Counted from the stretch's first letter, positions 3,224 to 31,835 are shown. The stretch: 64,000 nucleotides of DNA from Saprospiraceae bacterium (GCA_017985675.1 JAGNXB010000001.1:490743-554742), one strand, 5' to 3'. The notes: generated from the letters alone by a model not told the origin. A program made the numbers and translations.

Positions 3224-4285
3224 TTAAAAGGTGGGACACTGCACTACGTTGTCTTCAAATTCACCAACGAAACCCAGACTAATTTCAAATGCTCCCCGTC
3301 GGTAACCCAAGTTATTGATTTCTGAAATCCCGAGATCATAACTCATTCCTAGCAGCATTCCTACATATTCGATACCTACAAACAACGTCGCTGATTCCGC
3401 AACGACCGAACGTTGTACATCTCCTACAATTCGCGCCCATCCCCCGGTATGAAGTGCAACTCCTGAATAATCATTGGTAAGAAAACGAACATTTGCACCG
3501 GTATTTATCTCCCGGTGTGGCCCTTGTTGTAAATAATGAAGCCTGGGCGAGAGATAGCTATTTCCACCCATGGGAATAACCATCGACCCATGTATTTGGT
3601 ATCTCCTGTACAATTTACTCGTTCCACCTTGATCTTCCGGAAAAAAAGATAGTCCTGGCTCTGTGAGATGGTGCATGGCTGCACCAATTTGAAATAACGC
3701 ATTTCGACGATACACCCAACTATAATTCACACCTGCTGCCAGATCGCCAAAAGTGATATTATTCCCTGGCAGCGCTTCAGCCGTAGGAAAAGTGTATCCG
3801 TCCTTTTGATTGAATTGGTCCTGAAAACTTAGATTGTTAAAGTTGATGTTTCGCTGTGCAATGCCACCTTGGAAAGCTGCACTTAAATATTGTGTGTTTT
3901 TGAAATTCAATGCTTTATGATAGGCTGCACTGATATTGATCTCATTGGATGTAAAGTCAAAATTCCTTACTTCATCCTTGTAGAAGATTAATCCAACACC
4001 AAAGGCGTCTTGGTATTGACTAGCTTGGGGCACCCTGAATCTAAAATCTAATGCTGTAGAAATAGTTGTAAATGGACGCTCCAACGCAGCCCGCCATTGG
4101 TCTCGGTATATACCTGCAATGCGAAATCGACCACTAAAAGCACCCGTCAAGGCAGGGTTCATTGTTAATGGCGAAGCATAAAATTGTGAAAAGTGCCTGT
4201 CTTGACCAACACTTGTCGATGGCATTCCTAATATCAGCGTGATAATACACACAAATAGACAAGATGGATAGACTTTAAATATCAT
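3224..4285 (-). CDS. PorP/SprF family outer-membrane protein (type IX secretion/gliding associated)
   Basis: 353 residues with an N-terminal signal peptide (hydrophobic residues 9-20, cleavage near SVGQD). The mature start DRHFSQFYASPLTMNPALTG is the hallmark of the PorP/SprF family, followed by beta-rich sequence with repeated GxxY and aromatic-ended strands expected of an outer-membrane barrel. SprF is needed for secretion of the SprB adhesin in Flavobacterium, and PorP for gingipain secretion. Many paralogues sit next to the large type B cargo they help to export, but here none is adjacent; the nearest large cargo gene begins at 7439 on the other strand. A good promoter candidate lies directly upstream. 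Confidence 0.9.
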   Translation of the reverse strand: MIFKVYPSCLFVCIITLILGMPSTSVGQDRHFSQFYASPLTMNPALTGAFSGRFRIAGIYRDQWRAALERPFTTISTALDFRFRVPQASQYQDAFGVGLIFYKDEVRNFDFTSNEINISAAYHKALNFKNTQYLSAAFQGGIAQRNINFNNLSFQDQFNQKDGYTFPTAEALPGNNITFGDLAAGVNYSWVYRRNALFQIGAAMHHLTEPGLSFFPEDQGGTSKLYRRYQIHGSMVIPMGGNSYLSPRLHYLQQGPHREINTGANVRFLTNDYSGVALHTGGWARIVGDVQRSVVAESATLFVGIEYVGMLLGMSYDLGISEINNLGYRRGAFEISLGFVGEFEDNVVQCPTF

Positions 4286-7438: not shown

Positions 7439-10400
7439 ATGAAACTTTGGATACCTGTACTGTTCCTTTTTACTGCTTTCTCAGCGCTCTCCCAACCTGC
7501 AAATGATGATTGTTTAACTGCAATTGATCTGGGTAAAGCACCCTATTGTGAGGACACTTATTTTTCAAATATAGGTGCTACACCATCCGATATTGGACCG
7601 AATAACATCCCCCCATGCTGGGATGCAGGAACAGTTCAACGTGATGTTTGGGTATCATTTATTGCAAGCGATACCATTTTGGACTATTCCATCTCAATTA
7701 TAGGCGAAAGTGATGGCACTTCCAATCCTTTGACCAATCCACAGGTCGCCGTATATCGAGGTGACTGTGCGCCTGGTTCGTTGTTCTTTTTTGGCTGCTA
7801 TAAAGCTAATAATACAGGAGACAATATCCTGAAATTCAGTCTTTCCGGATTGACCCCAAGTGCTGTTTATTGGTTACGCATCTCTGATTTTCCAGAGGTG
7901 AACACAACAAATGCCGGAACATTCAAGCTTTGTATTGAAAAAAAGTCGCCTATTACTAATATTATTGAAGGATTTTCAAAGGATTGTGATGGCTTAGTTG
8001 TTGACTCAGGTGGAGAAGATGGCAATTATGGCCCAAACGAGACCTACACATTTACAATTTGCCCGGAATTTCCTTCAGCTTGCATTGATCTCAATTTCAT
8101 CTATTACAATCTTGATTTTAATCAAGACATCATAACAGTGTATGACGGACCTGATGTAAACAGTCCGCAAGTGGGTACGATTGTTGGCGGTTTTGGCTTA
8201 TTCCAAGAATCATGGGGTGGAGTTTGTAAGCGATTTACCGCTACAAGTGGTTGTATCACCATACGATTTACTTCCAATGGAACAGAGGAATTTGAAGGAT
8301 TTTTAGCGGAGTGGAAATGTTCGCCTGTTCCTTGTAAAACCTATACCCAGCCTTTAGTTCAAAGCTCATTTACTGAGAATGAGGTTCTCCTGAATCTTAC
8401 AAGTACCCAGGCGATAGTTACATATGATACCCTTATCTGCGCAGATGGTGCCAGCGGTTTGTTTTTTAATGGGGATCAAACTGACCTTGGGCTAAACAAA
8501 GGCATTATTCTCACAACAGGAAATGCATTACTCTCTTTAGGCCCTAACAATCAAACTTCTGCTGGGATTGGCAACGGAAAACCAGGAGATTCGGATCTAG
8601 ATATTCTTTCCACATTATCAGGCAATTCGCTCCCTTCTTATGATGCTTGCATTCTGGAATTAGATGTCTATGCCAATACCAATGAAATTTCATTTGAATA
8701 CATTTTTGGTTCAGAAGAATATCCGGAGTTTGTAGGAGACGATTTCAATGATATTTTTGCTTTTCTGATTTCCGGTCCTGGCATTACAGGTATTCCCCAG
8801 ATCAATAACCAGGACAATATGGCCATTCTACCTAGTGGTGCACCTGTAGAGATTAATAGTGTAAACTATCAAGACAATTGGCAGTACTATAGAAATAACA
8901 ACAACAGCACTAGCATCCAATATGACGGGTTAACTTCTGATTCGTTGGGTAAGAAAAAAAGTCTAACCGCTAGGTACGATGTTACACCATGTAATACTTA
9001 TCATTTAAAACTGGCTATTGCGGATAGAGGTGACAGCTCCTACGATTCCGGTGTTTTCATTTCCGAGATTAAAGGTGGCGCACCGGCTATTGGTATGAAT
9101 TTCAAAAATGGTGTTGACTACCTAGTTGAAGACTGTACCAATAATCCGGATGAACTTGTTATTACTTTGAATAGCCCACTAGAAAATCCCATATCCTATA
9201 ATGTTGCTATTGGTGGATCTGCTACGCTAGGTGTAGATTATGCGTTATCTTTGCCTTCCATTGTTACCTTTCAACCTGGAGAAACTACTTTAAGTTTTCC
9301 AATTATTCCTTTGAGTGACAATGTAGCTGAAGGTGATGAAACCATTACAATAACCTTAAGCAATGATTTTGGCTGTGGGTCTGTCATATTTGCTGTTTTC
9401 ACCATTATTATTCGCGATGAGCTAAAAATCACTGTAAATGGTGGTCAGGATACTACTTTCTTTTGTCCTGGAACAAGTGTTGCGCTGAATGCAACAGGAG
9501 CTCTAGATTTCTTTTGGGAACCTGTTTCCATTTTTAATGATCCCACAGCAGCCAGTACTTTGGCAACTCCTCCAATGAGTATGTGGATTAAGGTTACCGG
9601 TCAACTAGGTATTTGTACCGCAGTAGATTCGGTCTACTTATTAGAAGTGAATCCTCAAATAGAAATTCAAAACAGCTCACCACAAAATATTTGTCAAGGT
9701 GATCTGGTAACCCTCGTCGCAAACAACAACTTAAATGGTCAGGGATCAATTACCTGGAGCCCCACTTTTGGACTGAATCCCTCCAATAAGGCTATTGTAA
9801 ATGCCAGTCCAACATTCAGTACATTTTATGTCGTCACGGCAAACCTAACCGGTTGCGAGGCAAAGGATACGATACTCTTCAACGTCGATCCGTTTAACTT
9901 TCCATTAGTGATACCCGACGTAACAATTTGTGAAGGGACAAGTATAAAATTGGCCAACGACATTCTATTTACTTCAACTACATACACCTGGACGCCAGCT
10001 GAAACACTTGATGATAGTTTAGTTTCCGGTCCAATTGCCACGCCATCCGTTACCACCACCTACAAATTGGTAGCAACAAGTCAATCAGGTTTCTGCTCAT
10101 ATTCCGTACAAACTGAGGTAACTGTGTTACCGGCAGACGTGTCCATAGTTCAACCAGATACTGTTTACTTATGTCTTGGTGATAGCATTATATTGAATGC
10201 TAACTTTACTCCAGGGGGTATACTCACTTGGCTTCCAGCGGATTCGACTAAACTAATCCAATCGGGCAATGCAGCCCTGGCATATGGAAATACTGCTTTC
10301 TGGGCCTACTCACAAATGTCTACCGGACCATGTACGGTCATTGATTCGATTTGGGTTCAGGTCGATTCGCTACCTGAGTTGACAATAACCAAATTCGTTG

Positions 10401-11860
10401 ACCGACCAATTTATTGTGAAGGAGAGATCATCACCTTTATTTCCCAAAGTTACCTCAACCAAGACTACCCAGATATCGAACATCTTTGGGCTCCTAACAA
10501 TAGTGCTTTCCTCACAGCTGACAGTAACCTCAACATTGTTTTGACTGCCAGGGAGTCCTTCACATACATAAGGCAGACAACAAACAATGCCTGTGTTGAA
10601 AACCAGGAAGTATCAATAGAAGTGATTCCTTTAGGGCTTATGCTTTCTGCAGATGTTATTACGCTTTGTCCGGGTGAAACAATGCAAGTTGAAATTCTGA
10701 ACGATAGTATAGAGAATATTATGTGGACGCCTCCTAATGGTTTAAGTTGCACAGAATGTCCTGATCCTATCATAACAGGCTCTACGACAACTTTCTATCA
10801 AGTCATGGGCGAAGAAAAGGGCTGCAACAAACAAGGCGGTGTAGCTGTGAATGTACCAGTACCTGTGCTTAATCTGCCACAATCACTAGTATTATGTCAA
10901 GGGGAATCGGGCAATTTGAATCCAGGTGCCGGACCAACAACCACTTATTTCTGGACCAGCTCAGATCCACTTTTCGGGACATCCACAGATCCGAACCCAA
11001 CTGTAACACCAATGTCCAATGCAATCTATTATGTTACAGCAACCCTTGATGGGTGCGAGCGTACTGGAGAGGTTCCTGTTGCACTAATCGTCCCCCCAAC
11101 CGTAACTATAGCTGCACCAAGCAATGCGATTTGTTTTGGTGAATCTGTTCTTTTAACAGCTACTGGTCTTCCAGTTGGAGGGGACTATCTTTGGTCACCA
11201 AACCAGGAAACAAGTCCAACTATCACAGTTAATCCTCCAGTTACTAGTCAGTATTCAGTAATTTATACCACGCCGAATGATTGTTTTGCTGATACAGCAA
11301 TCTTCCAGGTTACAGTGGATGTTCCCCTTGATATCGAACTGCTGATTTCACCAGATCAAGATACATTTGTTTTGGGGACACCACTTACAGTCACTGCCAA
11401 TATAATGCCTGTACCTCCTGCAGGATCTGTATATGTATGGAAAATAAATGGCAATGTAGCATCTGGCACGAATGGAAATGTTTTGGAAACAACTGCATCC
11501 GGCCCGCCTTTTGAAATAACAGTAGAAATTACAACTCCTGCAGGTTGTGAAAATATCGGTTCTGAAACATACACTGTAACTATTCCGTCCTATAAATTGG
11601 CTAATCTTTTCACACCAAATAACGACGATACAAATGATTACTTTACGATTCTGCTTGATCCCGGGTTAACCATAACTGACTTCAAAGTATTTTCCAGATG
11701 GGGCAAAATGGTATATGACAATGATAACCCAGCAGAGGGTTGGGATGGCAAATTTGATGGGCAGGAACTGCCATCAGATGTGTATGCCTACCTCATAACA
11801 CTTCGATTTGATGATGGATCGCTAATAACATTAAGAGGCGATGTCACCCTCGTTCGTTAA
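7439..11860 (+). CDS. Giant T9SS-exported surface protein: CUB, choice-of-anchor L, Calx-beta, PKD/Ig-like repeats, type B sorting domain
   Basis: 1473 residues with a signal peptide (cleavage near ALSQ). Domains in order: a cysteine-containing N-terminal module (about 20-165), a CUB-like domain (about 175-295, VYDGPD motif), a choice-of-anchor L region (about 330-550, FGSEEYPEF), a Calx-beta domain (about 565-655), a long series of about 90-residue PKD/Ig-like modules each with a CxG-type start, and a gliding motility-associated C-terminal domain (about 1389-1473; LFTPNNDDTNDYF and FSRWGKMVYDN). That last domain directs export through the type IX system and surface attachment. The likely role is adhesion, to a surface or polymer. 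It sits between a cytochrome gene and a haem-binding protein gene on the same strand but is probably a separate unit, with 93 bases before it. Confidence 0.9.
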   Translation: MKLWIPVLFLFTAFSALSQPANDDCLTAIDLGKAPYCEDTYFSNIGATPSDIGPNNIPPCWDAGTVQRDVWVSFIASDTILDYSISIIGESDGTSNPLTNPQVAVYRGDCAPGSLFFFGCYKANNTGDNILKFSLSGLTPSAVYWLRISDFPEVNTTNAGTFKLCIEKKSPITNIIEGFSKDCDGLVVDSGGEDGNYGPNETYTFTICPEFPSACIDLNFIYYNLDFNQDIITVYDGPDVNSPQVGTIVGGFGLFQESWGGVCKRFTATSGCITIRFTSNGTEEFEGFLAEWKCSPVPCKTYTQPLVQSSFTENEVLLNLTSTQAIVTYDTLICADGASGLFFNGDQTDLGLNKGIILTTGNALLSLGPNNQTSAGIGNGKPGDSDLDILSTLSGNSLPSYDACILELDVYANTNEISFEYIFGSEEYPEFVGDDFNDIFAFLISGPGITGIPQINNQDNMAILPSGAPVEINSVNYQDNWQYYRNNNNSTSIQYDGLTSDSLGKKKSLTARYDVTPCNTYHLKLAIADRGDSSYDSGVFISEIKGGAPAIGMNFKNGVDYLVEDCTNNPDELVITLNSPLENPISYNVAIGGSATLGVDYALSLPSIVTFQPGETTLSFPIIPLSDNVAEGDETITITLSNDFGCGSVIFAVFTIIIRDELKITVNGGQDTTFFCPGTSVALNATGALDFFWEPVSIFNDPTAASTLATPPMSMWIKVTGQLGICTAVDSVYLLEVNPQIEIQNSSPQNICQGDLVTLVANNNLNGQGSITWSPTFGLNPSNKAIVNASPTFSTFYVVTANLTGCEAKDTILFNVDPFNFPLVIPDVTICEGTSIKLANDILFTSTTYTWTPAETLDDSLVSGPIATPSVTTTYKLVATSQSGFCSYSVQTEVTVLPADVSIVQPDTVYLCLGDSIILNANFTPGGILTWLPADSTKLIQSGNAALAYGNTAFWAYSQMSTGPCTVIDSIWVQVDSLPELTITKFVDRPIYCEGEIITFISQSYLNQDYPDIEHLWAPNNSAFLTADSNLNIVLTARESFTYIRQTTNNACVENQEVSIEVIPLGLMLSADVITLCPGETMQVEILNDSIENIMWTPPNGLSCTECPDPIITGSTTTFYQVMGEEKGCNKQGGVAVNVPVPVLNLPQSLVLCQGESGNLNPGAGPTTTYFWTSSDPLFGTSTDPNPTVTPMSNAIYYVTATLDGCERTGEVPVALIVPPTVTIAAPSNAICFGESVLLTATGLPVGGDYLWSPNQETSPTITVNPPVTSQYSVIYTTPNDCFADTAIFQVTVDVPLDIELLISPDQDTFVLGTPLTVTANIMPVPPAGSVYVWKINGNVASGTNGNVLETTASGPPFEITVEITTPAGCENIGSETYTVTIPSYKLANLFTPNNDDTNDYFTILLDPGLTITDFKVFSRWGKMVYDNDNPAEGWDGKFDGQELPSDVYAYLITLRFDDGSLITLRGDVTLVR

Positions 11861-12778: not shown

Positions 12779-14566
12779 TCAAGGTTGAATGATCATCGTT
12801 TGTGAAAGTTGGCCGGATATTGTGCGTAAACGAATTAGATAAACACCCGAAGGATAAGCGTTAGCATTAAAAAAATATTTACGCTCACCACCAGAAACTG
12901 CACCCTCATAAACTGGAAATACCCTACCCCATGTATCCATTAGTTCGATAGTCACTGGTCCGGTATAGGATGCAAATTGCACAGGGATACATGTTATAGC
13001 CGAAGCAGGGTTAGGAAATGCTGACTCCCATGAGACTAAACTTTTTAAAGATAAATCTACGCTGGAAGGACCTTCTGCCATTTTAAAAGTCCAATAGCCC
13101 CAAGGTGCAGTAATGGGTCTACGTAATGTCTTTGCATTAGCTGCTGTTGCTTCGATATAATAGAAGACCTCAGCTTGAGGTTCAAGAAACGGAATGACAC
13201 CCGTCCAAAAATCAGTGCCCGGAGATTGAACCATATTTGAAGCAATATATCCAACTAACGTATCGGTAGAGTAATAAAGGATAGCCTCATCAATGCCTTC
13301 CCTGTGTTGGATCAAGGCATCAACAGTTGCTCCCTGTTCATTCAAGATTGTCCCGTCAATCGGAAAATGTACTATGCGCAAAGGATCATTCACTCCAACT
13401 TCTTTGGTTATGCAATGTAGTGCACCACTTGATGGAATTATGGCATTGCAATCTATCCCGACTATATGATAACCAGGCATAGCTTCTCTATAGATACGCA
13501 AAGCCGTGGAGTCATATTTCAGATCGTACGTAGGTACTATGATGGTTTTGTTCGCAATCAGTGAATTAGTATATGTCCTGTATTGCCCTCCAGTATTAGG
13601 AAATTTTCCAGTGGCATCAGGTGGCATTGGGATGCGAATAACTCTGAAAGGTGTGCCAGCTGAGGTTGTGAAGTTGTTTAATACATACTGGAGATTAGCT
13701 TCAATTTGAGGCCCATCTGCCACCCCTGTAGGGTATTCTCCAACCAAAAGGGTTTGTTCATCAAGCATTTTCATATGCATGTCAATATGATGAATTCCAT
13801 CAAAGGGAAGATTTTCCATTTTGACGTATGGCGCAATCCCCATATACGTGTTCATCAGATTGTCAATTGCAGCCTCATCATGATTACTTGTACCGTAGGT
13901 ATTATTTGGACCATTTTCTTCCAAAACGAGATTAGAAGAAAAACCTCTGCCTAGACCATCACTCATAAAATTCCCGCCAGTATGTACCAGATCATTAGGA
14001 GCGACTGAGGTTGAAATAACAGGTAATCCCATAGCAGTTCCTACGGCGATGGGTACTTTGTCATCATTTGGGCGCGGTCTGTTATATATCCAGTCCACTA
14101 AAAACAAGGAGTCAATATCATTCAGGTAAACCGGATTTGGACCATAATCCCTTACCCAAATAGAATTGAAAGGGGTCACTAGAAAAGAGACATTTTCAGT
14201 CCAATCAACACCTTTTCCATTTAGATAATTTTTTACAGTCGTTTCATTGTTACAGACTATAATTACATTACATTCCTTTTGAAGGTTACGAACAATTTCT
14301 GCAAGAATAGCTTGAAAACTGGTCCAAGTGATCACTACTGATTGGATTTCCTCCCACTCGGCCATAGTGCGAAATGATGCCCCCCTAACTGAAGATAATG
14401 GAATACTATAAGAAGAAACATCTGGCGCTTTATAATTTGGAAGGAGTAGTTTTTCTTCTTCTGTCAAACCGCGTGGTAACTCATACTTGCTTTCCTGGGC
14501 ATGAGAAGAGCTCATTGAGGTAACAATTAACAATATTGCAAGGACTAGTTGAACTCGAAATTGCAT
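12779..14566 (-). CDS. Secreted peptidylarginine deiminase-like enzyme (PPAD type) with T9SS type A sorting domain
   Basis: 595 residues: signal peptide (about 1-23), a PAD_porph guanidine-modifying domain (about 60-395), an Ig-like domain (about 400-490) and a T9SS type A sorting domain (last about 75). This is the order found in Porphyromonas gingivalis PPAD. All PPAD catalytic positions have counterparts: Asp140 (VRDYGPN), His260 and Asp262 (HHIDMH), Asn334 (YTNSL) and the nucleophile Cys385 (GALHC). The two arginines that bind the substrate carboxylate in PPAD are present as Arg163 and Arg165 (YNRPRPNDD), as is HTGGNFMSDG. These points favour deimination of C-terminal arginine in peptides over agmatine hydrolysis. 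The gene lies 3 bases downstream of a TonB-dependent receptor gene. The alternative is a secreted agmatine deiminase relative. Confidence 0.88.
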   Translation of the reverse strand: MQFRVQLVLAILLIVTSMSSSHAQESKYELPRGLTEEEKLLLPNYKAPDVSSYSIPLSSVRGASFRTMAEWEEIQSVVITWTSFQAILAEIVRNLQKECNVIIVCNNETTVKNYLNGKGVDWTENVSFLVTPFNSIWVRDYGPNPVYLNDIDSLFLVDWIYNRPRPNDDKVPIAVGTAMGLPVISTSVAPNDLVHTGGNFMSDGLGRGFSSNLVLEENGPNNTYGTSNHDEAAIDNLMNTYMGIAPYVKMENLPFDGIHHIDMHMKMLDEQTLLVGEYPTGVADGPQIEANLQYVLNNFTTSAGTPFRVIRIPMPPDATGKFPNTGGQYRTYTNSLIANKTIIVPTYDLKYDSTALRIYREAMPGYHIVGIDCNAIIPSSGALHCITKEVGVNDPLRIVHFPIDGTILNEQGATVDALIQHREGIDEAILYYSTDTLVGYIASNMVQSPGTDFWTGVIPFLEPQAEVFYYIEATAANAKTLRRPITAPWGYWTFKMAEGPSSVDLSLKSLVSWESAFPNPASAITCIPVQFASYTGPVTIELMDTWGRVFPVYEGAVSGGERKYFFNANAYPSGVYLIRLRTISGQLSQTMIIQP

Positions 14567-14569
14567 AGT

Positions 14570-16852
14570 TTAGAATTTTAAGTTGAGACCAATACTTGGT
14601 ATAGTTGGCAATTGATCCACGCGCGTGTATTCTACGCGGTCAAAGAAAAATATGTTATTCCGGTTGTATAGATTAGTCACACTGGCAATAGCCTCTAGAT
14701 GACTAAACTTAGTGAATTTCCATGTTTTTTTCAAAGAAATGTCCATGCGGTGATAACTAGGTAATCGACCTGCATTTCGTTTGCCATCATATAGGATTCC
14801 CAGTTCGCCATTTTCTGTGAGGATGTCGGAATTTATGCCATCCGAAAGATTGTAATTCGTGTAAAAACCCTGGGTCAAAGTGAATGGAAATCCACTGCCA
14901 AAATTCCATCGAATAGCACTTTCCCAAGATTTTTCCTTCCCAAATGCATAGGTGATCAACGCATTTACATTGTGCCTGCGATCGAATATAGGTGGATATA
15001 CCTGCTCCCCATCATCCCGAGTTACTTTCGCCAGAGAATAAGTTCCCCAAAAAGTGAAACTGTTTACTGTATAATTTATAGAAAAATCTATTCCGTATGC
15101 ATCACCAGTTTCTGCCTGATAATTTGGATCTGAGGGAACCAGTTTGTTCCTGTTTAGGGATACGAGCTGTGTGAATCGTTTAAAGTAGGGCTCTATATTT
15201 ATGGTTATCTGTTTGCTAAGATCCAATTCTACACCACTAATAATGTGATAGGCCTTTTGGAGACGATGGTCCGATGGTACAGCGCTCCCTGGTTTGTTAA
15301 AAGCTTCATCGGGACCAGAAAGGAAGCCGACAAACAGGTTTACCACATCTAGTTCATTTACAGAGCTAATAAGGTTTTGACTATAAAAACCTCCAGCTAA
15401 TTTGAAACGAATCGCATCTGTCAAACTATACTTCAGACCCAGACGGGGCTCAAGTTCCACATCATTGAGGGAGGAATAATAGATGAAACGAAAGGAGGGT
15501 TCAAAAATCAGGTTTCCCCACTTTTGTTTGTACTTAAAAAACCCGGCAATATCAGTGTTGAAGCTCTCCTGTTGGATTTTGTTATCGAGAAAGTTGGTGA
15601 AAGCAAAATCTGTATTGAACCCATGGATATCAAAACCGTACTTGATCTCATTGTTTAAGCCAAAAAAGGTAAAATCCAATGCAATATTAAAAGCGGATAC
15701 CCGGCTATTTCTTGGCTTTTCGTCAGATTGTTGAAGTCTGATTTTATAATCTGTCAAGCTTATTTGGGCTCCAATGACGGCATTGGAGTTACCTGGTACC
15801 ACTGAAAGCCGCATCCCACCGCCCCGGTTTTGCCAATCTAATTTTGCAGCATTACCATAATCGACATAGTCTTCAAAATTAAAACCGAACAAGCTGATTC
15901 GGCTGGCGCTACCTGCCATAAATGTCACTTTGCCATACAGGTCAGAATAAGTAAACGGTAAACCTATACTATCATTACCTGCATTAGGATAAAGGAATTT
16001 ACTTGTTTGATCGAGGTATCCTCTTTTACCTGTGATAAGAAATGAAGCGCTTGTAGGACTATCTTCTTTTAATTTTTTCAAAGGCCCTTCAAGCAAAATA
16101 TTGGTTTGAAAAGGATTGACACCAACTGTGCCTCCAAACCGCTTCATATTGCCTTCACGCGTAGTGATATCTACAATTGCACTAACACGACCACCATATT
16201 CAGCAGAAAACCCGCCAGTCATTACATCAATATTTCTGACCGCCTCTGTCTCAAAAACCGAGAATAGACCAATGGAGTGGAAAGGATTATAAATCGTCAT
16301 TCCATCTAACAATATTTTATTCTGAACGGGAGAACCACCACGAATGTATAATTGCCCTCCCTGATCACCTGTAAAAACTATGCCTGGTAAAACTGGAAGG
16401 TACTGAGCGATATCCGATGCACCCCCAGTAGACGGCAGCGATTTAATTTGTTTAGGTGTCACCATCATTTTTGATACCTGTACCTCAGTACGAGAAGCTT
16501 CCCGTGCACCGGATACATCAATTGTCGCCAATTGGATACTGGATTCTTTTAAAAGAATTCGCTTTGAGAGTATCTCACCCTTTTTTAACGTTACTGTCAG
16601 CTCCAATGAATCATAGCCGAGATAAGAAACTTGAAGGGTGTATGATCCGGCATCAAGCCCGGTAATAGCGAAGATGCCATCAAGATCAGTATTTACACCT
16701 ACATCAGTACCCTTTAGCCGCAGCGTGGCAAAAGAAATTGGATCTCCTGAACCCTCATCAAGTAATGTCCCACGAATTACACCATTTTGTGCAGAGGCAA
16801 AGAAAGGGGCAAATAGACATATAAAGAGTACCCCTCTAAGAATATTTAGCAT
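14570..16852 (-). CDS. TonB-dependent receptor with carboxypeptidase-like N-terminal domain
   Basis: 760 residues. A signal peptide (cleavage near ASAQ) precedes a CarboxypepD_reg-like beta domain (about 24-110, with GTLLDEGSGDPISFATL), then a plug domain with LYIRGGSPVQNKILLDG and the barrel-start signature GGFSAEYGGRVSAIVDI, then a barrel ending in an aromatic-rich strand with terminal Phe. It is an outer-membrane active transporter energised by TonB/ExbB/ExbD. At 760 residues it is short for SusC-type importers, and no SusD-like gene is adjacent. Only 3 bases separate its stop from the PPAD-like gene, so the two are almost certainly co-transcribed. The substrate is unknown; a peptide, amino acid or siderophore is possible. 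Confidence 0.92.
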   Translation of the reverse strand: MLNILRGVLFICLFAPFFASAQNGVIRGTLLDEGSGDPISFATLRLKGTDVGVNTDLDGIFAITGLDAGSYTLQVSYLGYDSLELTVTLKKGEILSKRILLKESSIQLATIDVSGAREASRTEVQVSKMMVTPKQIKSLPSTGGASDIAQYLPVLPGIVFTGDQGGQLYIRGGSPVQNKILLDGMTIYNPFHSIGLFSVFETEAVRNIDVMTGGFSAEYGGRVSAIVDITTREGNMKRFGGTVGVNPFQTNILLEGPLKKLKEDSPTSASFLITGKRGYLDQTSKFLYPNAGNDSIGLPFTYSDLYGKVTFMAGSASRISLFGFNFEDYVDYGNAAKLDWQNRGGGMRLSVVPGNSNAVIGAQISLTDYKIRLQQSDEKPRNSRVSAFNIALDFTFFGLNNEIKYGFDIHGFNTDFAFTNFLDNKIQQESFNTDIAGFFKYKQKWGNLIFEPSFRFIYYSSLNDVELEPRLGLKYSLTDAIRFKLAGGFYSQNLISSVNELDVVNLFVGFLSGPDEAFNKPGSAVPSDHRLQKAYHIISGVELDLSKQITINIEPYFKRFTQLVSLNRNKLVPSDPNYQAETGDAYGIDFSINYTVNSFTFWGTYSLAKVTRDDGEQVYPPIFDRRHNVNALITYAFGKEKSWESAIRWNFGSGFPFTLTQGFYTNYNLSDGINSDILTENGELGILYDGKRNAGRLPSYHRMDISLKKTWKFTKFSHLEAIASVTNLYNRNNIFFFDRVEYTRVDQLPTIPSIGLNLKF

Positions 16853-16958: not shown

Positions 16959-18449
16959 TTAGTTATCATTTTCATTTGAATCAAGATCACCCAAAGCGCC
17001 CGCAAGATCGTCTCTAAAATGGGCACTTTGGCCAATCAGTTCTTTACTAATAACTTGAAATTCAGCCAGTCCGTGCAAAACTAACTCTAAATATGCATTC
17101 AATTCGGAAACATCGTCAAACTTCGATTGTACGACAGTTTTCAGACCGGAGACTTGATTTAATTTAGATATGTATACTGCTTCAGATTCATTTGAGAGGA
17201 AAGAAATCTCATTCCCACCCGCAAACCATGCTGTTATATCGCCAAAAGGATTTTTATCCTTGGTTGACCTCTTTTGCTCTGGATTGGGAAAATATCGGAG
17301 GAAAACAGTTTTTACTGCATCATGTATCAAGGTCAGGGCTACCTGGTAAGCCCCCTCCTGTTCTCCTTCGTATACCAGTTCCACTTTTCCAGTGATTGCA
17401 GGTACAATTGCCCAAAAGTCATTCAAGCGTGCTACCCCTTTTGATTCTTTATTAAGGATCATCCTACGTTCTACAGCACTAACCAGGTTTTCATAAGCGG
17501 AAATATTTAATCGTGCGGAGACACCACTTTTCTGATCGACAAAATCGCTTTCACGTGCTTCAAAGGCCACTTGGTCAAGGATCTCATGAATGATTGAAGG
17601 CACATGAATAGCTTCCATTTGTTCGAAAGCCAATCGCGCTTCCTGACGTGTAATACGTTGACTGACCGCCGTATCAGTCGGATAGTGTGTTAATATCTGG
17701 GAGTCAATTCTGTCTTTCAGCGGGGTGATTATACTACCTCTATTTGTGTAATCTTCAGGATTTGCCGTAAAGACAAATTCAATATCAAGATGTAATCGCT
17801 TTTTGAAACCTCGAATTTGGATATCCCCTTCCTGTAAAATATTAAACAATGCCACTTGAATGCGAGGTTGTAAATCCGGTAATTCATTTATGACAAATAT
17901 GCCTCGATGCGCACGTGGTACAAGGCCAAAGTGGATGACCTGTTCGTCTGAATAAGACAGTTTTAGGTTGGCTGCTTTTATCGGGTCAACATCGCCAATA
18001 AGATCAGCGATGCTGACGTCGGGTGTAGCGAGTTTTTCAACATAACGATCATCCCGATGCAACCATCCTATGGGTGTATTGTCGCCCATCTTTGCAATGA
18101 GCTCCTTAGAACTAACTGTAATAGGGTTCATGGGGTCTTCAGGCAATTCGGAGGAATGAAGGATAGGTATCCATTCATCAAGTAGCCGAACTAACAGCCG
18201 GGCAATTTTAGTTTTAGCTTGCCCTCGTAATCCAAGGAGCAATATATGATGGCGAGAAAGGATTGCACGTTCTATATCTGGTATGACCGTTTCTTCAAAC
18301 CCATAAATGCCTTTGAAAACGGAAACACCATGATTAAGTGCCTGAAGTAAATTCATCCGAAGTTCGGTCTTTACTGATCTGGGCTCATATCCGCTTGCTC
18401 TCAGTTGGCCCAGTGTTGTGATGGCTGGTGGGTTTGTATTTTGCTCCAT
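16959..18449 (-). CDS. MoxR/magnesium chelatase-like AAA+ ATPase
   Basis: 496 residues. The P-loop is GLRGQAKT (residues 73-80). The Walker B strand ends in INEL instead of the usual DE pair, with a family-typical continuation (PDLQPRIQVALFNILQEGD), and the sensor region has TANPEDYTNRG. This matches the group annotated as magnesium chelatase or sigma-54-interacting proteins, which are chaperone-like ATPases that work with a VWA-domain partner on a metal- or protein-remodelling task. The expected partner type is encoded at 60556-61653, some 42 kb away rather than next door. The client is unknown. Confidence 0.85.
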   Translation of the reverse strand: MEQNTNPPAITTLGQLRASGYEPRSVKTELRMNLLQALNHGVSVFKGIYGFEETVIPDIERAILSRHHILLLGLRGQAKTKIARLLVRLLDEWIPILHSSELPEDPMNPITVSSKELIAKMGDNTPIGWLHRDDRYVEKLATPDVSIADLIGDVDPIKAANLKLSYSDEQVIHFGLVPRAHRGIFVINELPDLQPRIQVALFNILQEGDIQIRGFKKRLHLDIEFVFTANPEDYTNRGSIITPLKDRIDSQILTHYPTDTAVSQRITRQEARLAFEQMEAIHVPSIIHEILDQVAFEARESDFVDQKSGVSARLNISAYENLVSAVERRMILNKESKGVARLNDFWAIVPAITGKVELVYEGEQEGAYQVALTLIHDAVKTVFLRYFPNPEQKRSTKDKNPFGDITAWFAGGNEISFLSNESEAVYISKLNQVSGLKTVVQSKFDDVSELNAYLELVLHGLAEFQVISKELIGQSAHFRDDLAGALGDLDSNENDN

Positions 18450-22852: not shown

Positions 22853-23338
22853 ATGAATAAAACATTATTTGAGCAATTAAACGAATCAGATATCGCCCTT
22901 CTCTTAGGGGCATTGCCACGTATTGCCATCCTGGTTGGCAGTGCAGATGGTGATTTTGATCAAAATGAAAGAGATTGGGCCAAAAAGCTTGTTCAAATAC
23001 GTGCTTTTAAACATCCAGAGGTCTTAGAAGGACTTTATGAAAATTTGGAAACAGATTTCGAGACGACTTTAAACACATTGACAGATAGTTATCCTACTGA
23101 GTTAACTGCACTACAGGAGCAAATTACGGCTGAGCTCCTGCCAATAAACGGTATCCTTGAAAAGTTGGATATTTCCACGGCTAATGTCTTATACGATTCG
23201 CTTAAGTCTTTTGCATGGCACATTTCCCGATCCTCCGGGGGGTTTTTAGGCATTGGGGCAATCAGTAAAGAGGAGGAAAAATGGGTTTCTTTGCCGATGA
23301 TCTCTCCCCCACCACCTATTTCAGACGAAGAAGAATAA
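22853..23338 (+). CDS. TerB-like helical protein, unknown function
   Basis: 161 residues, no signal peptide. SADGDFDQNERDWAKKL resembles the metal-binding ADGxxxxxE motif of the tellurite-resistance TerB fold, and GGFLGIGAISKEEEKWV near the C-terminus matches the second conserved segment of TerB-like proteins. The role is unknown; TerB-family proteins are linked to metal-dependent stress responses at the membrane. It ends 5 bases before the M1 peptidase start and probably shares its transcript, though a functional link is not obvious. Confidence 0.7.
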   Translation: MNKTLFEQLNESDIALLLGALPRIAILVGSADGDFDQNERDWAKKLVQIRAFKHPEVLEGLYENLETDFETTLNTLTDSYPTELTALQEQITAELLPINGILEKLDISTANVLYDSLKSFAWHISRSSGGFLGIGAISKEEEKWVSLPMISPPPPISDEEE

Positions 23339-23343
23339 ACTCA

Positions 23344-25776
23344 ATGGTAATGATCGAAATGTTATCCAGACGGTGTACCCTATTTTTGATTACTTGGTTG
23401 ATAGTTATTGCTTCAGCTACAGCTCAGCCTTACGGTTGTCATCTTCATGATCATGAAATGCGTGTGGAAGAGCCGGATCCAATCAATATGGCCATTACCC
23501 GAGCATCTATCGCACGAAGTGACAGTGTCAATATTTTGCATTATGACATTCATTTGGATGTCACGGATTTTGGTGGTGTACTAAAGGGAGTGACAACAGT
23601 AATGTTAACACCCAAGATAGACAATATCGACACTCTTCTTTTTGACTTGGCTAAATTGAAAGTTGATTCTGTCCTTTTTCAAGGCCAACTTTTGACATTC
23701 GATCATCAAGACCCATATTTGTTTGTTTATCTGCCAAACGCATACAATCCGAATGATACGCTTGCCATTACCGTGCATTACGGGGGTAAGCCACTAAGGG
23801 ATCCGATATGGGGCGGATTTTATTTTGAGGGGGGGTACGCCTATAATCTCGGGATTGGCATTTCCAGTAATCCACCCAATTTTGGAAGAGTATGGTATCC
23901 TTGTTTTGATAATTTTGTTGAAAGAGCGACGTATGATATCCATGTACTCAGTTCAGCAGGACGAAAAGGCTACGCAATTGGCGATTTCGTAAGTGAAACA
24001 GTGGTTGGACAGGATAGTTTTTGGCGGCATTATCGAATGGAACAACTGCTGCCCACCTACCTAACTAATGTTGCCGTTTCGAATTACGTGGCGCACAGGG
24101 ATACACATACTGGTATATATGGGGATGTCCCTATCGAGTTATTGGGACGACCAAACAACATTAATGAGATGATATCGGGTTTTGCTCGATTAGGGGATGC
24201 TATTGATGCGATAGAACATTGGTATGGCCCCTATCCATGGTCCAGAGTCGGCTATGTTCTTACAACAGCAGGAGCAATGGAACATCCAACGAATGTAGCA
24301 TTTCCTGAAAGCTCGCTAAACAATGGAAATGGTAATGTACCCTTAATGACTCACGAATTGGGTCACCATTGGTGGGGAAACATTACCACATTGCGAGAAC
24401 CTACCGATATGTGGATTAAAGAAGGTAATGCAGAGTATTGTGCACACCTCCTTGATGAATGGTCTGATGGGCGAGAAGCATTTGTAAATACGGTTAAGAG
24501 TAACCATGAAGTAGTCCTTACTACTGTGCATCAGGAGGACGGCGACTTTCTGCCCCTTTCCGGGATCCCCTTTGCCAATATTTACGGCAGACATACTTAC
24601 TTAAAAGGCGCTTCTGTCCTGCATAATTTACGTGGCTACCTTGGTGATAGTCTTTTTCGGACAGGCCAGATGGCTATTTTAAATGATTTTGCTTATAATG
24701 CAATCGATGCGGAGACATACCGGGATCACCTCACTCAGGTTACAGGCATAGATGCAGGTCCATTTTTTGATGCTTGGATTTTTAACCCGGGCTTTTCATC
24801 CTTCAAAATACATTCATGGCAGAGTACTCCAGTTCCAGAAGGTCAGCATGTTCAATTTACCCTTAAACAGGGCATCAGGGCCACTACTTCTTATCATGTT
24901 AATGTCCCGATAGAAGTCAGTTTTTACAGTTCGGACTGGCAAGTATATTATACAACTGTCCAGGCCGGAGATCTCTTCAGTGTTCATTCCGTCATTGTCC
25001 CCTTCGAACCAGTACATATTGCCTTGAATGAGCGGTACCTATTAAATCAGGCTCGGTTGGATTACCAGCGGATACTCACTTCCACGGGTAATAACATCTA
25101 TCCTTTTGTTAAATTTCGGGTTAATGTTCAAAATATATCAGACAGCGCTCTGGTCCGCATCGACCATCATTGGATTGCACCCGATCCAGTCATCGACCAA
25201 CCTCAATTAAAGATCTCAAGTACAAATTTCTGGGTTGTTTCCGGATTATTCCCGCTGGGGTTTAAAGCACAGGGCAGGTTGTATTATGATGCTCAGGCTT
25301 CCAATGCATTTTTGGATTCTGATCTTGCTGGTGTGAATGAGGATAGTTTGCTGCTCCTATTTAGACCCAATGCAACTGCCGTTTGGCAAAAGTACCCCAG
25401 TTATAACCTGTTAAAGTTTGTCCCTACTGATGGTAAAGGTGAAATATTAATAAACGATCTCCAACCAGGGGAATATGCATTAGGCCGGGGCCAATTTCAG
25501 GAAGTGTCTAGTATTCCAGAATTAAATGAGGAAACTTTAAAATTATTTCCAAACCCTTCTTCTGGCACCCTATTTCTAGAATGGACTTCTTCCCAATCTA
25601 TGCCACAAACAATAATATGGTATGATATGATGGGGCGGGTCATTTTCAAGGAGGATCTATCTGATAATATTGGCATTCATTCACTCCGTGTGCCCGATGT
25701 TTATCCGGGCATTTATCCCATCCAAATCGTCACTACTAAAAACAATAGTATATATAAATTAATGACAATCAATTAG
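23344..25776 (+). CDS. Secreted M1-family metallopeptidase with T9SS type A sorting domain
   Basis: 810 residues from the ATG at 23344; the longer frame from 23281 would run through the TerB-like gene and bury the signal peptide. A signal peptide (cleavage near ATAQ) precedes an M1 N-terminal beta domain, the exopeptidase-type motif GAMEHPTN, and the zinc site HELGHH (His337, Glu338, His341) with the third ligand Glu360 exactly 18 residues later. After the catalytic region comes a beta-rich section and a final about 75-residue type A sorting domain starting LKLFPNPSSGTLFLEW. It should be exported by T9SS and cleave peptides, probably as an aminopeptidase, at or beyond the cell surface. Confidence 0.92.
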   Translation: MVMIEMLSRRCTLFLITWLIVIASATAQPYGCHLHDHEMRVEEPDPINMAITRASIARSDSVNILHYDIHLDVTDFGGVLKGVTTVMLTPKIDNIDTLLFDLAKLKVDSVLFQGQLLTFDHQDPYLFVYLPNAYNPNDTLAITVHYGGKPLRDPIWGGFYFEGGYAYNLGIGISSNPPNFGRVWYPCFDNFVERATYDIHVLSSAGRKGYAIGDFVSETVVGQDSFWRHYRMEQLLPTYLTNVAVSNYVAHRDTHTGIYGDVPIELLGRPNNINEMISGFARLGDAIDAIEHWYGPYPWSRVGYVLTTAGAMEHPTNVAFPESSLNNGNGNVPLMTHELGHHWWGNITTLREPTDMWIKEGNAEYCAHLLDEWSDGREAFVNTVKSNHEVVLTTVHQEDGDFLPLSGIPFANIYGRHTYLKGASVLHNLRGYLGDSLFRTGQMAILNDFAYNAIDAETYRDHLTQVTGIDAGPFFDAWIFNPGFSSFKIHSWQSTPVPEGQHVQFTLKQGIRATTSYHVNVPIEVSFYSSDWQVYYTTVQAGDLFSVHSVIVPFEPVHIALNERYLLNQARLDYQRILTSTGNNIYPFVKFRVNVQNISDSALVRIDHHWIAPDPVIDQPQLKISSTNFWVVSGLFPLGFKAQGRLYYDAQASNAFLDSDLAGVNEDSLLLLFRPNATAVWQKYPSYNLLKFVPTDGKGEILINDLQPGEYALGRGQFQEVSSIPELNEETLKLFPNPSSGTLFLEWTSSQSMPQTIIWYDMMGRVIFKEDLSDNIGIHSLRVPDVYPGIYPIQIVTTKNNSIYKLMTIN

Positions 25777-27281: not shown

Positions 27282-30209
27282 ATGCAATTGAAAAACTACG
27301 TCTTAGCTTTTGGTTTCTTAGGGCTATTCCATACAATACACGCCCAATTCTCGGTTTCTGGCTCTGTTCGTGGGGCCGCCGATGGTGAGGTATTAATAGG
27401 TGCCAGCGTTGTTGAAAAAGGAACAACGAATGGAGTCACCACTGATTTTGATGGCAACTTTAAGTTTGATGTGGCCCAATTCCCAGCTATTTTGGAGATC
27501 AATTATTTGGGTTTTGAATCACTGGAGGTACCAGTAGAAAAATCCACGCGCGAACTAAAGGTAGTCTTGCAGGAAGCGGGCATAACCCTAGAGTCTGTTC
27601 AAGTGCGCGGCCATCGGATCTCAGACAAACAAAAGGAGAGCGCACTTACAGTGGAATCACTGGACCTCTTAGCTATCAAAGAAACACCTTCGGATAACTT
27701 CTACGATGGACTTGGAGCATTGAAGGGTGTAGACCTGACGGCAGCAAGCCTGGGATTTAAAGTCATTAACATGCGTGGCTTTAATAGCACCAGCCCAGTC
27801 AGATCACTTCAAATCATTGATGGTGTAGACAATCAGGCACCAGGACTGAATTTTTCATTGGGTAATTTTTTGGGATCGAGTGAGTTAGATGTCAAAAGGG
27901 TTGAACTAATCGCAGGTGCAAGTGGTCCTTTTTTTGGACCCAACGCTTTTAATGGCGTCATAAGCATGGAAACAAAAAGTCCATTTTTCTTTGAAGGGCT
28001 TAGTGCTCAGGTCAAAGCTGGAGAAAGACAACTATTTGAATCCGCAATTCGGTGGGCACAAGTTTTTAAAAATCGTGAGGGGGATCCTGTAGTAGGTTAT
28101 AAGCTAAACTTTTTTTATCTCAGGGCTTATGATTGGGAAGCCGATAATTATGAACCCGTAAATGGCACTGATTATGATTTGAGTAATCCTGGAGGCTATG
28201 ATGCAGTAAATGTATATGGTGATGAATATAAGGCATTCATGGACTATTCAGGTGCTAGCCCATGGGATATTACCTATCCTTTAGGTGGTTTTTTTAGAAA
28301 AGGTTACAAGGAAAGTGATTTAGTCGACTACAATACAAGAAATATTAAAGCGAACGCGGCAGTGCACATTCGTCTGATCCCCTCGCAGGATTTCAATTCA
28401 CCTGAGTTAATTCTCTCCAGCAGTTTTGGATCTGGCACAACAGTTTACCAGGGCGATAACCGATTTAGCCTAAAAAACATCCTCTTTTTACAAAATCGGA
28501 TTGAGCTACAGAAGAAAGATAAGTATTTCCTTAGACTATATGCAACCCAAGAGGATGCAGGCGATTCCTATGATCCATATTTTACTGCATTAAAACTCCA
28601 GGAATCCGCTAAATCAGATATTGAATTTAGAGATGATTACCGCAATTATTGGACGAGTATTGGCAAGTTTTCCACCAGGATGACCAACCAGTTAGGTTAT
28701 CCGAAGCTTATTTCCACTTTTGATCCTCAAACTGGACAAGTTGTAAGCACTTTTGATTATAATGCTGCAAATCAATGGTTTATTAATTATGCTGATTCAT
28801 TATCTGAATGGCATATGTTAGCTCAGGCCTTTGCAAACTTAAAATCAAATCTTCCCAATGTTCAGTCTGAGGATTTTTTTGAGCCGGGATCGGCTAGGTT
28901 TAAGGCTGAATTTGACCGGATCAGATCAACTAAGTCGGGCGACCAGGGTGGCACCTTGTTTTTTGACAAATCTGCATTGTATCATGCTCATGGTCAATAT
29001 CAAATAGAACCTTTTTGGTTTGACAAAATAACTGTTGGCGCTAACTATCGATTGTACCGTCCTTATTCAGAAGGCACTATCTTTAACGATACGCTGGTAG
29101 AAGAAAAAAATGACCAGGGCGAGATCCTAAGAAGTTACTACAATAGAATTACTAATCAGGAGGTGGGATTCTACGGCGGTGTTGAAAAAAAATTCATGGA
29201 CAGCAAGCTTCATACTTCGCTTACACTGCGAGCTGATAAAAATCAAAATTTTAACTGGCTGTTTACTCCTGCTGTTTCAGCTGTTTATAACCCTGCAAGG
29301 GACAATTACCTTCGTTTATCTTTCAGTTCAGCTATTAGGAATCCAACACTTACTGATCAATATCTACGTCTAAATGTTGGCCCTGCGCTTTTAGTCGGTA
29401 ATCTAAATGGCTTTGATAGCTTAATTACATTGGAATCATTTAGAAACGCCATCGATAATCCTACAGCCGTTCAGGTTGACTCATTTGTATATTTCAACGC
29501 ACCCCCGATTCGTCCGGAACGAGTGAAAACATTTGAAATCGGATACCGGACGACGCTTTTCGAAAAGTTCTACATTGATGCTGGATATTATTTTAACATA
29601 TATGACGATTTTATTGGGTATAATATTGGCCTGACAGTCCCAGTAACAAACAGCCAGGTCAATCTAAGTCAACTGCAAGTTTATCGGGTTTCGGCTAATT
29701 CCCAAAATCAAGTTTTAACACATGGATTCAATATCGGCCTAAACTATTATTTTCATTCCAACTATATGGTTAGCGGAAACTATAGTTGGAATCGATTATT
29801 GAAAACCGATCCCAATGATCCTATTATACCCGCCTTTAATACCCCTGAGAACAAGTTTAATCTCAGCTTTTCTGCCAGGGATTTAAAACTAAGTCGGAAC
29901 TACCGGACCGGCTACAGTATCAATTATAAATGGGTGCAGGGATTCCTTTTCGAAGGATCCCCCCAATTCACTGGTTTCATCCCATCCTATGATATGATGG
30001 ATGTTCAATGGAATATTTCCTACCCTAGGTGGGGTACAACGCTTAAGGTTGGTGCTTCCAATCTGTTTGGATTCACTCCCTTATCGCGACCAAATCCTGA
30101 TGGCGATTCTATAGTTGCCAGAATGTTTGGCAATCAGAATTTTCAAACGTATGGAGGACCACGGATAGGCCGATTAGCGTATATTTCGTTTCTTTACGAT
30201 CTTAAATAA
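27282..30209 (+). CDS. TonB-dependent receptor
   Basis: 975 residues: signal peptide (cleavage near IHAQ), a CarboxypepD_reg-like domain (about 24-105, GVTTDFDGNFKFDV), a plug domain with MRGFNSTSPVRSLQIIDGVDNQ and FFGPNAFNGVISMETKSP, and a large barrel ending in LAYISFLYDLK. It is an outer-membrane importer energised by the TonB system. The end of the gene is 36 bases from a T9SS-exported hydrolase-like gene, with a terminator only after the latter, so the two form a receptor-plus-secreted-protein pair. No SusD homologue is present and the substrate cannot be read from the sequence. Confidence 0.92.
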   Translation: MQLKNYVLAFGFLGLFHTIHAQFSVSGSVRGAADGEVLIGASVVEKGTTNGVTTDFDGNFKFDVAQFPAILEINYLGFESLEVPVEKSTRELKVVLQEAGITLESVQVRGHRISDKQKESALTVESLDLLAIKETPSDNFYDGLGALKGVDLTAASLGFKVINMRGFNSTSPVRSLQIIDGVDNQAPGLNFSLGNFLGSSELDVKRVELIAGASGPFFGPNAFNGVISMETKSPFFFEGLSAQVKAGERQLFESAIRWAQVFKNREGDPVVGYKLNFFYLRAYDWEADNYEPVNGTDYDLSNPGGYDAVNVYGDEYKAFMDYSGASPWDITYPLGGFFRKGYKESDLVDYNTRNIKANAAVHIRLIPSQDFNSPELILSSSFGSGTTVYQGDNRFSLKNILFLQNRIELQKKDKYFLRLYATQEDAGDSYDPYFTALKLQESAKSDIEFRDDYRNYWTSIGKFSTRMTNQLGYPKLISTFDPQTGQVVSTFDYNAANQWFINYADSLSEWHMLAQAFANLKSNLPNVQSEDFFEPGSARFKAEFDRIRSTKSGDQGGTLFFDKSALYHAHGQYQIEPFWFDKITVGANYRLYRPYSEGTIFNDTLVEEKNDQGEILRSYYNRITNQEVGFYGGVEKKFMDSKLHTSLTLRADKNQNFNWLFTPAVSAVYNPARDNYLRLSFSSAIRNPTLTDQYLRLNVGPALLVGNLNGFDSLITLESFRNAIDNPTAVQVDSFVYFNAPPIRPERVKTFEIGYRTTLFEKFYIDAGYYFNIYDDFIGYNIGLTVPVTNSQVNLSQLQVYRVSANSQNQVLTHGFNIGLNYYFHSNYMVSGNYSWNRLLKTDPNDPIIPAFNTPENKFNLSFSARDLKLSRNYRTGYSINYKWVQGFLFEGSPQFTGFIPSYDMMDVQWNISYPRWGTTLKVGASNLFGFTPLSRPNPDGDSIVARMFGNQNFQTYGGPRIGRLAYISFLYDLK

Positions 30210-30245: not shown

Positions 30246-31835
30246 ATGAAGCGTCTTTACCCTTTAGTTTTTTTATTGCTTACGTCGTGGATTGTTTCCG
30301 CACAGACCCGATACCTCGATGAGGTATTTACCGATGTATCTGTACAACCAGGTATTACTTATGGCGTAAATGCAACAGTACTGTATTACAGCGCATTTGG
30401 TCAAGCTATTCCCGAAGCATTAAAACTTGATCTTTATGAACCTGTTGGTGATACAGAAACTGCACGTCCTTTAGTTTTGTATTTTCATACCGGCAACTTT
30501 TTACCTTTCAGAGATCCGGCTAATCCTTCCACCCTAGGTTTTAATGGATCTTGCGGTGGTGAACGGACCGATTCTGCAGCAGTAGAAATATGTACACGCC
30601 TTGCAAAAATGGGCTATGTCGTAGCCTCTGTTGATTACAGACTAGGGTGGAATCCACTTGCTGCAACTGATGTTGCTCGTCGTTTTGGAATTATCAATGC
30701 CGCTTACCGTGGTGTACAGGATGCACGTACTGCCATTCGTTTTTTCCGCAAATCAGTAGCAGAGCTAAGTAATCCATACAATGTTGATACGGATAAAATA
30801 GTGGTTTGGGGACAAGGCACCGGAGGTTATTTAACCTTAACGATGGGTACATTGGATAATTATCTAAAAATCCCACTAGCATCCAATGGTAAATTCATTT
30901 ATGACCATGATGCTAATCCAGCTACAAACCCTATTCCAATGGTTATTGAAGGAATAAATGGTGATATTTATGGAACTTCAGTAGGGATAAACCCTGCTGA
31001 TGGTGACACGTTGTGTTATCCTAATCACGTTGGATATGATTCTGAATATGCCCTTGCAGTGAATACAGGAGGTGCTACAGCAGATACAGCTTGGGCAGCA
31101 CCTGGACAATCGCCATTAATTTCTTATGCTGTTCCAACTGATAACTTTGCCCCTTATGGCGAAGGTATTGTTAATGTACCGGGTACTAATCTTCAAGTTA
31201 TACTGGCTCAGGGTAGTTACCTGCTTCAGAAATTACACGAGGAATATGGTAATCAAGATGCAATGGTGAATGCTGGTGTTTCTTTCGCTTTAGAGGCAGA
31301 ACAAGCTGCTGCTTTTGCTGCATCACCTGCCGAGTTCCAGGAGCCTTACGCAGGGCTATATCCTTTCAATATGCCCGACAAACCAGGTAGCCCTGGCATT
31401 CCTACTACCGTGTCGCCTTGGGAATGGACGAGTTTTGCCGGTGTAAACCCTGCAGATCCTTGCCTTCAAGATGGTGATTTTGCTCGTAACTATATTGATA
31501 CTATTGTGCAATTTTATGCTCCCAGGGCTTGTTTTGTACTTGAGTTCAATGAGTGTATCGAAAAAATCACTGGTATCAATATTATATCAGAAAGTGCTGT
31601 CGGTCTTAAGGTATATCCTAATCCTGGATATGAAGTGATCTACATCGAAACACAAAGTGGTTCTCCAATTCGGGAGGTATTACTTTATGATGAAATGGGA
31701 CGTCTGCACAAAGTTATTCCAGGCCTCAATTCCAATGTTGTTTCAGTGGAGCGCGGAAACTTACCGACCGGTCGTTATATCAGCTTAATTCGTTTTGATG
31801 AAGGTTCAGTCGTGCAAAAACTGATCTTCAAATAA
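30246..31835 (+). CDS. T9SS-exported alpha/beta-hydrolase-like protein lacking the nucleophile serine
   Basis: 529 residues: signal peptide (cleavage near VSAQ), a carboxylesterase/lipase-like alpha/beta-hydrolase region (about 40-420) and a C-terminal type A sorting domain (from about 455, LKVYPNPGYEVIYIE). The fold is recognisable from LDLYEP, PLVLYFHTGNF, GYVVASVDYRLGWNP and VQDARTAIRFFR. At the nucleophile elbow, where esterases have GxSxG, it reads WGQGTGG: position 191 is glycine. The protein may therefore be a non-catalytic binding protein or use another residue. It is co-directional with the preceding TonB-dependent receptor and is followed by a strong terminator. Confidence 0.8.
   Translation: MKRLYPLVFLLLTSWIVSAQTRYLDEVFTDVSVQPGITYGVNATVLYYSAFGQAIPEALKLDLYEPVGDTETARPLVLYFHTGNFLPFRDPANPSTLGFNGSCGGERTDSAAVEICTRLAKMGYVVASVDYRLGWNPLAATDVARRFGIINAAYRGVQDARTAIRFFRKSVAELSNPYNVDTDKIVVWGQGTGGYLTLTMGTLDNYLKIPLASNGKFIYDHDANPATNPIPMVIEGINGDIYGTSVGINPADGDTLCYPNHVGYDSEYALAVNTGGATADTAWAAPGQSPLISYAVPTDNFAPYGEGIVNVPGTNLQVILAQGSYLLQKLHEEYGNQDAMVNAGVSFALEAEQAAAFAASPAEFQEPYAGLYPFNMPDKPGSPGIPTTVSPWEWTSFAGVNPADPCLQDGDFARNYIDTIVQFYAPRACFVLEFNECIEKITGINIISESAVGLKVYPNPGYEVIYIETQSGSPIREVLLYDEMGRLHKVIPGLNSNVVSVERGNLPTGRYISLIRFDEGSVVQKLIFK

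Follow-up and report, generated by a model that had tools for sequence, protein, structure and literature searches.

A 64,000-nucleotide stretch of DNA from a Saprospiraceae bacterium (GCA_017985675.1, JAGNXB010000001.1:490743-554742; the window, with positions counted from its first letter) carries on its minus strand a gene that probably encodes a secreted peptidyl-arginine deiminase resembling PPAD of Porphyromonas gingivalis. The enzyme is expected to act at or outside the cell surface, and its gene is likely co-transcribed with that of a TonB-dependent receptor of general function. The catalytic assignment is well supported. The two genes are located as follows:

12779-14566, minus strand: PPAD-like deiminase gene, 595 amino acids
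14570-16852, minus strand: TonB-dependent receptor gene, 760 amino acids, with CarboxypepD_reg_2 and Plug domains, directly upstream of the deiminase gene

The stop codon of the receptor gene and the start codon of the deiminase gene are separated by 3 bases, and it is because of this short spacing that co-transcription is likely; both open reading frames and the gap agree exactly with an initial annotation of the window. Scanning the region for promoters and terminators gave no more matches than shuffled sequences did, a result that is uninformative on co-transcription.

The deiminase shows the domain order of PPAD (PDB entries 5ak7, 4ytb and 4ytg), consisting of a signal peptide, a deiminase domain, an immunoglobulin (Ig)-like domain and a type IX secretion system (T9SS) sorting domain:

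14498-14566, minus strand: signal peptide, residues 1-23, MQFRVQLVLAILLIVTSMSSSHA, read from the sequence, with low pLDDT (predicted local distance difference test) values at residues 23-25
13361-14371, minus strand: catalytic deiminase domain, residues 66-402, from the Pfam and PPAD alignments
13076-13360, minus strand: Ig-like domain, residues about 403-497, as in PPAD, from the phmmer alignment and beta-rich in the structural model
12785-13018, minus strand: T9SS type A sorting domain, residues 517-594 (TIGR04183, 29.3 bits, cut-off 23)

The Pfam model PAD_porph (PF04371) matches residues 67-389 with an E-value of 1.6e-40 and 139.7 bits, versus a gathering cut-off of 25, and is matched by all 57 aligned relatives. 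On Pfam PF18962 the T9SS tail, which is present in 53 of the 57 relatives, scores slightly below the cut-off (24.7 bits, cut-off 27). The best PDB match by sequence is PPAD (5ak7, 2.5e-35), followed by the Chlorobium entry 1xkn (5.9e-24) and agmatine deiminases, and the phmmer alignment to PPAD extends into the immunoglobulin superfamily domain, to residue 481. An AlphaFold2 model, built from 57 sequences of the protein's own clade, has a pLDDT of 91.5. In a PDB fold search the predicted structure finds PPAD first, with an E-value of 9.5e-39, a template modelling (TM) score of 0.85 normalised to PPAD and 27% sequence identity; the match covers 442-465 columns, compared with 417-419 residues in the PPAD chain. 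Next come 1xkn and agmatine deiminases, at about 1e-26 to 1e-20, while human PAD4 is a weak match (4e-8, TM about 0.38). The order of Ig-like and T9SS type A domains that the initial annotation had read from the sequence is thus borne out by phmmer, TIGR04183 and the model. Together, these data support a secreted-type PPAD-like deiminase with the whole architecture of PPAD, and such a protein would presumably be exported.

The five catalytic positions and the two arginines named in the initial annotation all proved correct by alignment to PPAD. Residues D140, H260, D262, N334 and C385 are the equivalents of PPAD D130, H236, D238, N297 and C351, and R163 and R165 those of PPAD R152 and R154; PPAD W127 and G182 are likewise kept. 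The main elements of the site are encoded at these positions:

14060-14086, minus strand: YNRPRPNDD motif, residues 161-169, with R163 and R165, identical to the PPAD motif
13778-13810, minus strand: Michaelis-loop segment LPFDGIHHIDM, residues 253-263, with H260 and D262, from the alignment
13412-13414, minus strand: codon of the nucleophile Cys385 (PPAD C351), from the alignment

Conservation was counted over 112 non-redundant members of the protein's clade, using the PPAD numbering of PMC4487231. The catalytic residues, R154, W127 and G182 are present in 112 of 112 members and the R152 equivalent in 111, so the residue match is not due to chance. By PPAD chemistry, the enzyme would hydrolyse the guanidinium group of peptide-borne arginine to citrulline and ammonia, with Cys385 as the nucleophile, His260 as the acid/base, Asn334 aiding the cysteine, and Asp140 and Asp262 holding the guanidinium. 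Arg163 and Arg165 would hold the substrate arginine by its backbone carbonyl or carboxylate, a contact that would make peptidyl-arginine, not agmatine, the substrate. The targets of the enzyme are probably proteins or peptides located at the cell surface or beyond it.

Differences from PPAD that had escaped the initial annotation are found in the specificity loop and next to the nucleophile. The position of PPAD Tyr233 is occupied by Gly257, and none of the 112 relatives has a tyrosine there (Gly in 54, Val in 14, Ala in 12, Glu in 8, Leu in 7, Gln in 7, and others). The gatekeeper Cys239 is replaced by Met263 (Met in 112/112), Arg352 by Ile386 (Ile in 110/112) and Trp240 by His. In the clade the loop LP[YF]DxIHHIDMH is nearly fixed, with position 233 (x) variable, and an aromatic residue (Tyr, Phe or Trp) is present at position 231 in 111 of the 112 members, being Phe255 in the window protein. 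The absence of Tyr233 is not a selection effect, since the public loci were recruited by a pattern spanning the loop that leaves position 233 unconstrained, and the remaining sequences came from whole-genome searches in which no pattern was used.

The relation to PPAD and to the agmatine deiminases was analysed with a tree of 66 sequences (a version with 90 was also made). Cytosolic agmatine deiminases split off with a support of 100/100, placing the window protein outside their clade. PPAD groups with the secreted deiminases of other Bacteroidota at loci L061 and L165-L168 (100/99), and this group joins a further one that includes a second paralog from the same genome as the window, L064 (100/100). 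The window protein falls in a sister clade of PPAD (96/79; 98/95 when the first-branching sequence is left out), outside the PPAD clade proper. Like the window protein, the L061 and L165-L168 proteins contain the NRPR motif, and a T9SS tail was found in the two scanned (L061 and L166), but they lie on the PPAD side of the tree, where L061 keeps Tyr233 and the sequence LHCR and L165-L168 have Ala at 233. The sister clade is encoded on at least 559 stretches in the named genome collection. The best 80 of these are from Saprospiraceae, Flavobacteriales, Ignavibacteria, Chlorobiales, Calditrichota and single metagenome-assembled genomes labelled Deltaproteobacteria and Thermoanaerobaculia; the taxon names are record titles of such genomes, in which binning errors are possible. 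Of the 395 genomes in a sample across the phylum, 21 encode a deiminase of the clade (E below 1e-130). The sister group of PPAD to which the window protein belongs is thus large and apparently unstudied.

It is very improbable that the protein is a secreted deiminase of agmatine or free arginine that has merely been labelled as PPAD. Agmatine deiminases (AguA; PDB entries 2jer, 3hvm and 6b10) share PF04371, the guanidine-modifying propeller fold and the catalytic residues with it, and the agmatine deiminase model TIGR03380 gives a weak match, but at 56.1 bits this match is far below the equivalog cut-off of 381.8. In addition to their separate position in the tree, agmatine deiminases are cytosolic single-domain proteins that have Asp at position 239 and mostly Ala and Phe/Tyr at positions 152 and 154 in place of the arginine pair, whereas the window protein carries the signal peptide, Ig-like and T9SS domains. 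AguA genes often lie near AguB-like genes: a carbon-nitrogen hydrolase gene of the AguB type is found within three genes at 7 of the 11 most distant loci, versus 2 of 112 in the window's clade, and no such neighbour is present at the window locus. On the basis of the tree, the residues and the model cut-offs, identity with agmatine deiminase was rejected. In the genome as a whole there are just two PF04371 genes, neither of which is as short as the cytosolic type, and no AguB scores above the cut-off.

Further variants were observed among the PF04371 proteins. The second paralog of the same genome (L064:2093-3688, G000:C125), near PPAD on the tree, keeps Cys239 and Arg352 and has lost the R152/R154 pair, and no Pfam sorting domain was found in it. 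The Saprospiraceae protein at L061:5660-7684 (G017), an environmental relative that groups with PPAD, combines Tyr233 with the NRPR motif. A group of long proteins (L059, L060, L062 and L169-L174; 640-1095 amino acids) has a GGTGHID loop and keeps the equivalent of R154, not that of R152.

The initial annotation pointed to the two arginines as those that in PPAD recognise the C-terminal carboxylate of the substrate, but they do not establish specificity for C-terminal arginine. In PPAD the C-terminal carboxylate of the substrate is bound by R152, R154 and Y233, a residue following the substrate arginine would clash with Y233 and R152, and R152 is essential for activity (PMC4487231). The calcium-dependent human PAD4 is an endo-deiminase with other extra domains, yet it has the same catalytic residues, R372 and R374 at the positions of R152 and R154, and the small Ser468 at that of Tyr233 (PMC4487231). 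Since an endo-deiminase possesses both arginines, their presence is no proof of C-terminal specificity. Conversely, the PPAD mutants R152A and R154A are reduced in activity and still specific for C-terminal arginine (PMC4893104), and therefore other features of the PPAD pocket must also enforce exo-specificity. R163 and R165 support a peptidyl-arginine substrate and leave the choice between exo and endo undecided. In the absence of Tyr233, the window protein is probably more tolerant than PPAD of what comes after the arginine.

That the protein is a secreted bacterial endo-deiminase, citrullinating internal protein arginines with no need for a protease, is a possibility to which we give rather low odds. 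The residues that PAD4 shares or nearly shares at these positions argue for it, as does the freedom of position 233 to vary in an otherwise largely fixed loop. The loss of Tyr233 may leave room for such activity, with the aromatic residue at 231 as a caution, as it may block the exit instead; furthermore, PPAD lacking R152 or R154 is not endo-active (PMC4893104), and the overall fold resembles PPAD and matches PAD4 weakly. Still less likely is the broader proposal that the whole T9SS-secreted clade citrullinates internal arginines of extracellular proteins, as a common activity of free-living Bacteroidota, Ignavibacteria and Calditrichota that is independent of an arginine-specific protease.

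Strict exo-deiminase activity, acting on C-terminal arginines released here by the genome's own gingipain-R-like protease, is a serious but tentative alternative, somewhat more plausible than an endo-deiminase. R163 and R165 are conserved and PPAD itself remains exo-specific when either arginine is mutated, but all 112 members lack Tyr233, which in PPAD serves both as the third carboxylate ligand and as a steric stop. The initial annotation had found no arginine-specific protease in the window; this stands, but a candidate exists elsewhere in the genome, which encodes three C25 peptidases. One of these (P0003; G000:C5:43839-45776 onward; L209, L210) has a signal sequence and a gingipain-type prodomain, and its match to RgpB (3.6e-55) is much stronger than that to Kgp (2.3e-15). 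In the alignment it keeps RgpB E152, D163, T209, H211, V242, C244, W284 and M288, which we take to be the catalytic residues and the arginine-binding S1 site. Close copies of P0003 are found in five of 61 relatives, each of which also encodes the deiminase (hypergeometric P 0.011, or 0.026 when the genome of the window is excluded). Among the 395 phylum genomes seven have a close copy, four of them together with the deiminase (P 2e-4, or 0.002 with the same exclusion). These P values ignore shared ancestry. Such a copy is lacking in 21 of 26 deiminase genomes, among them four congeners in which the same two genes are paired, an absence that fits endo activity better. The gingipain-R-like protease may therefore cooperate with the deiminase in its own genome, but is not required. 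The window also encodes an M1 peptidase with a T9SS tail (23281-25776); its family is not arginine-specific, and the C25 protease is the better partner candidate.

Some points weigh against the assignment of a PPAD-like peptidyl-arginine deiminase of relaxed specificity. The aromatic residue two positions before 233 (Phe255) could take over the role of Tyr233. Because the gatekeeper Cys239 is Met in the clade and the PPAD mutants C239A and C239S are only about 8% active (PMC4487231), the rate or the substrate may differ from that of PPAD. Finally, no activity data were found for any member of the window's clade.

The initial annotation suggested that the adjoining receptor may take up a product of the deiminase, which would make the pair a dedicated uptake system for peptide-arginine. 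The 3-base spacing speaks for this, as do 13 sampled species (over all loci) in which the receptor gene always comes first, on the same strand, with 0-174 bases between the genes. In these pairs the receptor is kept at about 50% protein identity, and 12 of the 13 adjacent deiminases fall in one loosely supported tree group of 16. Among 61 Saprospirales genomes, however, the receptor ortholog is single-copy in 48, of which 23 have no clade deiminase, so that regular co-occurrence is not observed, and where both genes are present (25 genomes) they are adjacent in eight (five in one genus) and apart in 17. Adjacency is scattered on the receptor tree, and at deiminase loci outside the Saprospirales none was seen. 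A near-universal Saprospirales gene that is retained where the deiminase is missing, next to a deiminase that mostly stands alone, makes dedicated uptake improbable, and a role of the receptor as import partner is weakly supported. An ancient arrangement, retained in some lineages and lost in others, would fit best, in which the deiminase likely shares one transcript with an upstream receptor having a general function of its own. Further upstream lies another neighbour, which is found two or three genes upstream of the deiminase in nine of the 13 pairs:

16959-18449, minus strand: MoxR-type AAA ATPase gene, a syntenic neighbour upstream of the receptor gene

Elsewhere in the window, a second TonB receptor (27282-30209) is followed by an esterase of the BD-FAE type (30246-31835), whose T9SS tail is weak. 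A 1473-residue protein with Ig_7, Calx-beta and CHU_C T9SS domains (7439-11860) is perhaps a surface adhesin, and a PorP/SprF-family gene is located at 3224-4285.

PPAD, an object of research because of its link with rheumatoid arthritis, has been described as unique among microbes (PMC4487231), and a later survey remarks briefly that genes of the pPAD type are more widespread (PMC8826395); searches of an open library of papers turned up none that deals with such deiminases from Saprospiraceae. The sequences analysed here form a large environmental sister clade that has the catalytic residues and architecture of PPAD, minus the tyrosine that is thought to help its exo-specificity. If its members are active, the clade would be a natural experiment on exo versus endo citrullination. 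It would also suggest that citrullination of proteins outside the cell is nothing unusual in the environment, and that the enzyme of the pathogen represents one offshoot of this trait.

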